Below are positions 60,452 to 62,369 of a DNA stretch of 64,000 nucleotides, piece by piece. Position 1 is the stretch's first letter, and each line of letters starts with the position of its first letter. The notes beneath the pieces were generated by a model, which worked only from the letters and a program-made list of their open reading frames with translations, had not been told where the DNA came from and searched no databases. The position numbers were made by a program, and so were the translations under genes. The DNA is taken from positions 1 through 64,000 of the forward strand of contig NZ_JAYGHP010000017.1 of assembly GCF_034932065.1 (NCBI RefSeq). The letters run 5' to 3'. This DNA is from Crocosphaera sp. UHCC 0190. GTDB taxonomy: Bacteria > Cyanobacteriota > Cyanobacteriia > Cyanobacteriales > Microcystaceae.

Positions 60452-61105
60452 TTAAACAGAAACAGTTACCCAATTTTGCAATTCTTCCCATCCTAACCCT
60501 TGTCGAATAATAGCAGGAGGATTGGAAGTCATATCAACAATGGTTGAAACTTCAAAACCCGGTTCTAAGTCATTATCAATAATCAGATCAACCTGATTTT
60601 CAAAAATGTCAAATAGTTTGGCTTTTTCTAAGTCAAGGGTAGGAAATTCTCCATCTTCATCAGGTAAATGGGCAGAAGTAGAAATAATAGGATTACCTAA
60701 CTCTTTTAAAATTACCTGACAAATTGGATGATCAGGAACTCGAATTCCTGTAGTTTTCCGTTTAGGACTCATCACCAATTTTGGCACAAGTTTAGTCGTG
60801 GGAAGCAAAAAAGTGTAAGGGCCAGGAACCACCCTTTTCATAATACGATAAGCTTCATCTGTAACTGCCGCATATTCGGCAATATTTGAGAGAGAAGAAC
60901 ACAAAAATGTCAGGGGTTTATCATTAGATAATTGCTTTAATTGCCGAACCCGTTGCACTCCCGATTTACTATTGAGATCGCAACCAATCGCGTAAACTGT
61001 ATCTGTAGGATAAAGCATGATCGCCCCTTTTCTGAGGGCATCACAAATTTCCTCAATGCGACGAGGTTGGGGATTATGGGGATGAAGATCGTAGAGGATA
61101 GCCAT
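60452..61105 (-). CDS. YrdC/Sua5/YciO-family L-threonylcarbamoyladenylate synthase-like protein
   Basis: A 217-residue protein of the YrdC family. It has the ATP/threonine site pattern MLYPTDTVYAIGCDLNSKSGVQRVRQLKQLSNDKPLTFLCSS and GPYTFLLPTTK, and ISTSAHLPDEDGE in the third conserved block. Members make threonylcarbamoyl-AMP for t6A tRNA modification; this one looks closer to YciO, for which the activity is less certain. Its start codon lies five bases from that of the divergent larC, so each promoter must lie inside the other gene. Confidence 0.85.
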   Translation of the reverse strand: MAILYDLHPHNPQPRRIEEICDALRKGAIMLYPTDTVYAIGCDLNSKSGVQRVRQLKQLSNDKPLTFLCSSLSNIAEYAAVTDEAYRIMKRVVPGPYTFLLPTTKLVPKLVMSPKRKTTGIRVPDHPICQVILKELGNPIISTSAHLPDEDGEFPTLDLEKAKLFDIFENQVDLIIDNDLEPGFEVSTIVDMTSNPPAIIRQGLGWEELQNWVTVSV

Positions 61106-61110
61106 AGTTT

Positions 61111-61914
61111 ATGACAAAGATAGCTTATTTTGACTGTGCAACGGGAATCGCTGGGGATATGTGTTTAGGCGCATTGGTTGATAGTGGTGTTCCTTTAGAA
61201 TACTTGATTGAGCAACTCAAAGGGTTAAAAATTGACCAAGAATATGAGTTAAGTCAAGAAAAAGTTCACCGTCAAGGACAGATGGCCACCAAGGTTCATG
61301 TTAATTTATTGTTAGATCAAACACCAGCCAGGGAATCCCAGGAAACCCACCATCACCATCATAGTCATCATCCCTCTGCTCGTCATTTACCAGAAATTGA
61401 ACTGATGATTCAACAGGCAAATTTACCGCCACGGGTGACAGAATGGAGTCGGGATATTTTTCGTCAGTTAGCCATAGCAGAAGGGGCTGTACACGGCGTT
61501 GAACCCCAAAATGTTCATTTTCATGAAGTGGGGGCAACCGATGCCCTTGTAGACATTATAGGGACGTGCTTAGGGTTAGATTGGTTAGGGGTTGAGGTGT
61601 TATACTGTTCGGCGATGCCGACGGGTGGGGGGACAGTTTGGGCGGCCCATGGTCGTTTACCTGTTCCGGTTCCCGCCGTGTTAAAGTTATGGGAATCCCG
61701 TCAAGTTCCGATTTATAGTAATAATATTGACCAAGAATTAGTGACACCAACTGGGGCAGCTATTGCGGTTACTTTGGTGAAAAGTTTTGGGGAACCACCG
61801 CAGATGAAACTGGAAAAGGTGGGTTTAGGGGCGGGTTCAAAAGAGTTACCTATTCCTAATATTTTGCGTTTGTGGATTGGGGAAAGTAGTTCAGAAAAAA
61901 AAACAGTAATCTAG
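61111..61914 (+). CDS. larC: LarC, N-terminal part before the frameshift
   Basis: A 267-residue frame encoding the N-terminal half of LarC, the nickel insertase that finishes the nickel-pincer cofactor of lactate racemase-like enzymes. It begins [26 protein letters not shown] and contains [17 protein letters not shown] and [11 protein letters not shown] His-rich stretch, THHHHHSHH (near 90), is usual in the family. The frame ends at TAG 61912 after a nine-A run (61895-61903). A -1 slip there at codons AAA AAA would read on into the next ORF. In Lactobacillus plantarum larC1/larC2 are also joined by frameshifting. Confidence 0.85.
61895..61903 (+). promoter_or_regulatory. Nine-A slippery run joining the two larC frames
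   Basis: Frame-zero reading is GAA AAA AAA ACA, which contains the A AAA AAA slippery heptamer, then ends at TAG 61912. A -1 slip gives AAC AGT AAT and continues open through 62369. The join yields about 419 residues, the usual LarC length. Ribosomal slippage, transcriptional slippage or an indel are all possible. Confidence 0.6.
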
Positions 61915-61925
61915 ATATAGTTGCT

Positions 61926-62369
61926 GTGTTAGAGACTCAAATTGATGATTTAAGCCCGCAAGTTATTGGCTATGTTTTTGATACTTTATTGAAGGCGGGG
62001 GCCTTAGATGTATTTACCCAGTCGGTTAATATGAAAAAGTCTCGCCCTGGTATTTTATTAACTGTCATTTGTCCCTTAGATAAAGTTTCGTCGTGTGAGG
62101 AAATTATTTTTAAGGAAACCACAACATTAGGCATTCGTCAATTAATTCAAAAACGGTCTATTTTAGAGCGAGAAATTAAGATCGTTGAGATAAAATATGG
62201 TCAAGTAAGGGTTAAGATAGCGAGTCAAGGAAAGGGGGAAGAAAAAACAATTATTAATGTACAACCTGAATATGAAGATTGTGCTGCCTTAGCGAAAAAG
62301 TTTAATCAACCATTACGAAGCATTCAACAAATGGCATTGGAGGCTTTTTCTCCCAATATTTTAGGATAA
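61926..62369 (+). CDS. larC: LarC, C-terminal part after the frameshift
   Basis: A 147-residue frame if counted from GTG 61926, but the frame is open from 61890 and joins the upstream part by a -1 shift. It carries the LarC C-terminal block VAVLETQIDDLSPQVIGYVF and LDVFTQSVNMKKSRPGILLTVIC, with MKKSRPG the strongest signature. Independent translation is possible but no ribosome site is seen. Whether a functional full-length LarC is made depends on frameshifting. No larB, larE or larA is in the window. Confidence 0.85.
   Translation: MLETQIDDLSPQVIGYVFDTLLKAGALDVFTQSVNMKKSRPGILLTVICPLDKVSSCEEIIFKETTTLGIRQLIQKRSILEREIKIVEIKYGQVRVKIASQGKGEEKTIINVQPEYEDCAALAKKFNQPLRSIQQMALEAFSPNILG

Follow-up and report, generated by a model that had tools for sequence, protein, structure and literature searches.

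Is the larC gene of Crocosphaera sp. UHCC 0190 broken, or is it one gene read in two frames? The DNA analysed, called the window below, is a stretch of 64,000 nucleotides of contig 17 of a genome of 4.43 Mb in 38 contigs (G000; other genomes carry labels of the same kind), and near its end the two domains of LarC are encoded in overlapping frames that meet at a run of nine A residues (A9). Comparison with related genomes makes it very likely that larC works, that its full-length protein depends on -1 recoding at A9, and that this arrangement has a single origin and has been kept since. Papers given by PMC number are cited from excerpts of their text.

The two frames of larC and their join

Table 1. 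Features of the larC locus (positions in the window)
Feature	Positions	Strand	Remark
larC 5' frame, LarC1 domain, 267 aa + TAG	61111..61914	+	unshifted product
larC 3' frame, LarC2 domain, open -1 frame	61890..62369	+	used from base 61902 after the shift
A9 run, putative slip site	61895..61903	+	unchanged in 9/9 complete split copies
A_AAA_AAA heptamer in 0-frame phase	61896..61902	+	would-be tandem ribosomal -1 slip site
GAAAAAAAAACA, invariant 12-mer	61894..61905	+	alignment of the 9 split copies
0-frame TAG stop ending LarC1	61912..61914	+	read from sequence
Interdomain linker, 47 nt, flanked by the conserved LarC1 and LarC2 cores	61879..61925	+	length and sequence vary in unbroken relatives

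The LarC1 frame ends with GAA AAA AAA ACA GTA ATC TAG, its stop beginning at 61912, the ninth base past the run; in the Crocosphaera copies the 0-frame stop lies farther downstream than in larC of the window. A -1 shift after the second AAA joins 264 residues to 155, giving 419 by count. In profile searches the 5' frame matches nickel_LarC1 (TIGR00299; 3.3e-63, 212.3 bits, cut-off 90) and the 3' frame nickel_LarC2 (NF052512; 1.4e-43, 147.7 bits, cut-off 50), and the two cover consecutive stretches of PF01969, positions 1-243 and 239-374, with Pfam scores of 314.9 and 176 (cut-off 22.1). DUF111 is an older name for the PF01969 LarC family. The 5' frame also matches residues 20-257 of the solved LarC chain 12bi and the 3' frame its residues 267-407, as well as chain 6bwo, so the join falls in a short interdomain linker. 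The initial annotation, which had named the gene larC and joined its frames by a -1 shift on nine A's into a protein of about 419 residues, is thus borne out in identity, coordinates and length by the profiles and by direct reading of the frames.

The gene tsaC lies on the minus strand, divergent from larC on the plus strand (60452-61111), with 5 nt between the two start codons, so that each promoter is presumably inside the other's gene.

Distribution and history of the split

LarC was found in 46 of the 50 family genomes; no match was obtained in the other four, which include both genomes of genus g8 (1.4-1.5 Mb). Nine of the 46 are split at the linker (G000, G002, G017, G029, G033, G058, G059, G061, and G062), one (G024) runs into a contig end, and the remaining 36 are in one frame. 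The split set spans three genera including Crocosphaera, represented by the window, by G002 from a second genus, and by seven genomes of genus g14. All nine complete split copies keep both the G-A9-CA motif with its -1 offset and two frames open over their full length. At the level of loci with both halves, 107 of 121 are one frame and 14 are out of frame, the latter coming from the same nine genomes, several of which were retrieved repeatedly.

A wider survey gave PF01969 matches in 235 of the 242 order genomes, in which G000 is the sole member of the split group; 14 genomes with two or weak PF01969 matches, among the matches listed, were searched anew. The gene is broken away from the linker in G216, G270, and G043, and at the linker in G096, where no A-run exceeds 7; none of these four breaks has an A-run of 9. 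A long in-frame insert occupies the linker in G189, and in G265 the two halves sit on different contigs, each at an end.

The nine split copies and the single-frame copy of G060 form one clade in a tree of 33 rows (support 99/96), with three unbroken rows of genus g13 as sister (group support 93/83), while branching inside g14 is mostly unresolved. Five sequences (G046, G042, G025, G040, and G039) had been dropped from this tree, and 9 of the 47 extracted loci were missed by the linker motif. An earlier tree of 36 rows gave the split clade 91/96, with the long-branch outgroup G046 placed inside the Crocosphaera group. On the main tree two changes suffice to explain the distribution, which may be read as one gain and one loss, the latter in G060, whose linker is 45 nt long instead of 47 and otherwise resembles those of the split copies. 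G060 suggests that the split is dispensable.

The initial annotation had proposed that larC of close cyanobacteria be aligned and had taken a continuous frame among them as evidence against its reading. In the alignment the run and the -1 layout are kept in 9/9 split copies; continuous frames do occur close by, in the sister clade and in G060, so that the refuting condition holds in part, but nine copies alike in run and offset, with selection on both halves, argue against error or decay.

Conservation of the run and selection on the two halves

Among unbroken relatives the linker differs in both length and sequence, and across 90 loci (86 different sequences, G060 among them) the A-run reaches at most 7, except for G060 with 9; a further relative, G021, has A8 within an unbroken linker. 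In the split copies, despite its position in the linker, GAAAAAAAAACA ranks second in length among the fully invariant stretches of larC, and the codons upstream of the run differ. A9 occurs 4 times on the two strands of the window, where 100 shuffles of it average 18.4, and gives 111 overlapping matches in the whole 4.43 Mb genome. The split is more than chance, run and layout being kept in all nine copies although A9 is scarce in the genome. Among the nine copies the codon is kept in 3 of 8 invariant Lys columns and in 10 of 16 invariant Glu columns, which makes conservation of the run through codon freedom alone only mildly unlikely. The argument from conservation therefore relies on the retained frame offset and on invariance within a linker that is otherwise free to change.

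Both halves of larC are under purifying selection. In eight pairs of split copies, chosen from 36 possible, omega is 0.083-0.187 for LarC1 and 0.119-0.303 for LarC2, with dS up to 1.18 (about 1.2) and the run unaltered. Five unbroken pairs gave 0.091-0.171 and 0.089-0.183, respectively, and two pairs with G060 0.083-0.092 in LarC1 and 0.131-0.225 in LarC2; constraint on LarC2 of the split copies is thus possibly slightly relaxed compared with the unbroken ones. Constraint on LarC2 implies that it is translated. The claim that the arrangement is conserved and not decaying therefore holds, on the run and offset of nine copies and on selection in both halves.

Mechanism of the shift

In the phase of the 0 frame the run holds a slippery heptamer of the X_XXY_YYZ type, A_AAA_AAA (61896-61902). 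The conserved downstream stem-loop of dnaX-type signals was not found: in folding without pseudoknot modelling, no conserved RNA structure appeared downstream of the run in the nine split copies, their consensus energies ranging from 0 to -4.3 in windows 50 to 120 columns wide, with 67-87% of equal-sized windows elsewhere in larC more stable than those after the run. Single sequences fold at -6.4 to -14.0, each differently. As a candidate SD-like stimulator, a GGGG lies upstream of the run, and some unbroken copies, e.g., G012, have it too. With no conserved structure downstream, the homopolymer run itself is probably the signal.

The slipping agent would be RNA polymerase, whose slippage the initial annotation had listed as a rival, or the ribosome, with about even chances. 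The feature expected for poly-A transcriptional slippage, an uninterrupted run of at least 9 A's that is scarce elsewhere, is present. Polymerase would be favoured by the split copies never having fewer than nine A's, though seven would serve the ribosome, and by the scarcity of A9 in the window together with the Nostoc IS elements that carry 8-10 A's (PMC1088944). The ribosome would be favoured by the phase of A_AAA_AAA and by the -1 direction found alike in larC, in the second split gene described below, and in Lactobacillus. The phase of the run has no power to tell the two apart, because every A9 holds an in-phase A_AAA_AAA.

A second split gene and other A-runs in the genome

At least 85 distinct runs of nine or more A's or T's were read in the genome of the window, 40 of which fall at least partly within an ORF of 100 aa or more. 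The gene for a META/DUF4377/Lipoprotein_21 protein (the META gene below) is likewise broken by -1 at an A9 (L225:766-2087; G000:C14, about 122,895). Its second half has relatives in 25 of the 50 family genomes. It is split by -1 at the run in seven genomes, at A9 in G000, G012, and G071 and at A10 in G024, G029, G058, and G060, and is unbroken with A11 in G059. G070 and eleven g7 genomes have an unbroken gene, the junctions displayed lacking such a run, and the other five genomes have one frame with a different junction. The two splits do not coincide in distribution: G012 and G071 belong to g13, where larC is unbroken, yet their META gene is split, as it is in G060, in which larC is not. The existence of a second gene split at an A-run makes slippage tolerated or exploited by the lineage more plausible than a nickel switch specific to larC. 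A bolder proposal is that A9-A10 runs are a recoding device common to several chromosomal genes of Crocosphaera and its relatives, larC and the META gene needing a -1 slip of the polymerase, and so a lineage-wide dial of expression; we regard it as possible and somewhat doubtful.

Other candidates fared less well. An ISL3-family transposase is split by -1 at an A10 (L192:574-1850; G000:C4, about 201,364) with both halves on one Pfam model; recoding was rejected for it, since G000 has a single match above the limit and its relatives have many longer frames, so that the split is probably decay. The A9 of L202:25-2624 (G000:C6, about 150,075) was likewise discarded as a frameshift site, the locus looking by eye like two adjacent genes. 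This A9 lies at the join of an apparent restriction-modification gene pair, also judged by eye. At L231:1122-1663 (G000:C16, about 40,180) an ORF stops 7 nt past an A9 and the -1 frame continues without a stop for 177 nt; the Pfam search assigned this ORF to no family above cut-off.

Alternative explanations

A fault of sequencing or assembly, which the initial annotation had listed as a rival and for which homopolymers are the usual site, has a practically negligible chance here: the same A9 and -1 offset recur in nine genomes with different flanking codons, and both halves are under selection. Decay of a pseudogene killed by one indel is barely credible, since both halves have low omega throughout the three genera, with dS reaching 1.18, and full-length open frames in all nine copies; larC is broken in the annotation sense, and further breaks occur in the order (G043, G096, G216, G270), but those have no A-run of 9. 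Phase variation, in which replication slippage would toggle larC, fits the varying run length of the META gene in relatives (A9, A10, A11) and the Lactobacillus plasmids, split with A10 and unbroken with A11; it is highly improbable for larC, where run length is identical in 9/9 split copies and the clade's single unbroken copy has a linker 2 nt shorter. Two separate proteins, with LarC2 started on its own, have a precedent in plasmid larC of Niallia and Paenibacillus (L131, L132), where LarC1 ends and LarC2 restarts at an ATG; judged by eye, an SD-like sequence precedes this ATG in Paenibacillus, and a stretch of the AGGAG type does so in Niallia. LarC2 of these plasmids appears to be started independently. 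For the split cyanobacteria the same reading is quite improbable. In six of the nine copies the LarC2 frame contains a GTG or TTG located 18 codons ahead of its core, upstream of the run, but G000, G017, and G029 have none there, the alignment holds no start codon before the core common to the nine, and no SD-like stretch was seen by eye ahead of these codons in the bases displayed. A GTG stands at the core itself in G000 and G059. Independent initiation of LarC2 in the split cyanobacteria is unlikely.

A further reading is programmed regulation, which the initial annotation had suggested for nickel cofactor synthesis and in which the ratio of LarC1 to LarC set by slippage would itself be used, e.g., through a separate role of LarC1 or control by nickel. 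The run length of exactly nine in all nine copies, the recurrence of a like layout in Lactobacillus, and such signals in other metal-insertion genes, chlD (PMC9227772) and the magnesium chelatase and DUF111 clusters (PMC3711429), as far as the excerpts go, speak for it. We consider it fairly unlikely, since the downstream region shows no conserved structure, G060 has a single frame with both halves still under selection, an unrelated gene is split in a similar way, and no observation made here links the split to nickel. That slippage was first tolerated and then depended upon would be the simpler reading.

Proposed function and significance

Dependence on recoding at A9 would work as follows. 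Without a slip, transcript and ribosome would yield LarC1 alone, of 267 aa; a fraction slipping by one on the run would give the complete LarC of 419 aa, the predicted nickel-insertion enzyme for the nickel-pincer nucleotide cofactor. The split would have a single origin, in the ancestor shared by Crocosphaera and the two nearest genera sampled, and the run would have been retained because its loss would abolish LarC2. We infer that slippage occurs, without need for added RNA structure, and likewise the function of its product. The genome of the window also encodes LarE (326 bits, cut-off 150; G000:C12), and a profile search of it for LarA (PF09861) gave no match. LarA is missing from most cyanobacteria, and which cyanobacterial protein uses the cofactor is not yet known, according to the excerpt of a study in which Synechocystis LarC replaced that of L. 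plantarum in E. coli and lactate racemase activity was obtained (PMC11796402).

The split raises the question whether making some LarC1 without LarC2 benefits the cell or is no more than an accident that it tolerates. In these genomes LarC will be divided by gene callers, so surveys of the pathway may miscount it.

Comparison with known systems

A protein search found relatives of LarC1 in 97 plasmid records, 14 of them from Lacticaseibacillus or Lactiplantibacillus, and four of these 14 make up the Lactobacillus comparison. The larC1 and larC2 frames of L. plantarum are reportedly joined by programmed frameshifting (said to be the work of Desguin et al. in 2014). In two of the four records, L. 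paracasei pBD-II and L. plantarum Heal19, larC is split at the same linker and requires -1, the junction reading GAA AAA AAA AAC TAA; in L. paracasei TCS larC is unbroken, with A11, and in L. plantarum TS12 it is unbroken and lacks such a run. The parallel with Lactobacillus drawn in the initial annotation thus proves apt for half of the copies compared, which share with the window the enzyme, the LarC1/LarC2 linker, the -1 layout, and an unbroken A-run that starts from a GAA codon and has the 0-frame stop straight behind it. The runs differ in length, A10 in the split Lactobacillus copies and A9 in the Crocosphaera group. The surroundings differ as well: larC of Lactobacillus lies between larB and larE, with larA alongside in the Heal19 record, whereas in the window it is divergent from tsaC in a genome in which, unlike Heal19, LarA (PF09861) was not found. 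Among the cyanobacterial rows the split is confined to one clade with an unbroken sister, with 107 of the 121 loci in one frame, and these unbroken relatives suggest that the cyanobacterial and Lactobacillus frameshifts arose separately.

Searches of the literature for Crocosphaera with frameshift and slippage returned nothing, and those for larC frameshifting mostly unrelated work; the excerpts of PMC7702098, PMC3496567, and PMC7583248 hold no text on frameshifting, and that of PMC5009743 no mention of larC. Among the nearest published cases is the GeneTack DUF111 cluster, whose genes are annotated in two pieces, as larC of the window is, with frameshifting that reached 39% when assayed by a reporter in E. 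coli, according to the excerpt (PMC3711429). In the same excerpt, A-runs of magnesium chelatase genes gave 10%, 40%, and 63% frameshifting in E. coli with 7, 9, and 11 A's. Magnesium chelatase and its chlD gene resemble larC in coding for a metal-insertion enzyme and in using -1 on A-runs, in a different protein; chlD yields both the small and the medium subunit from a single gene in the excerpted account, whereas LarC1 alone has no known role here (PMC9227772, PMC3711429). The IS elements of Nostoc, with transcriptional poly-A slippage at 8-10 A's, offer a comparable run in a cyanobacterial host, in the part of the paper available, the scarcity of long A-runs in the genome of the window being a further point of likeness, and differ in that larC is a cofactor gene (PMC1088944). 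To these systems the Crocosphaera group would add a conserved recoding site within a cofactor gene on the cyanobacterial chromosome, at the very linker that is shifted in some Lactobacillus copies.
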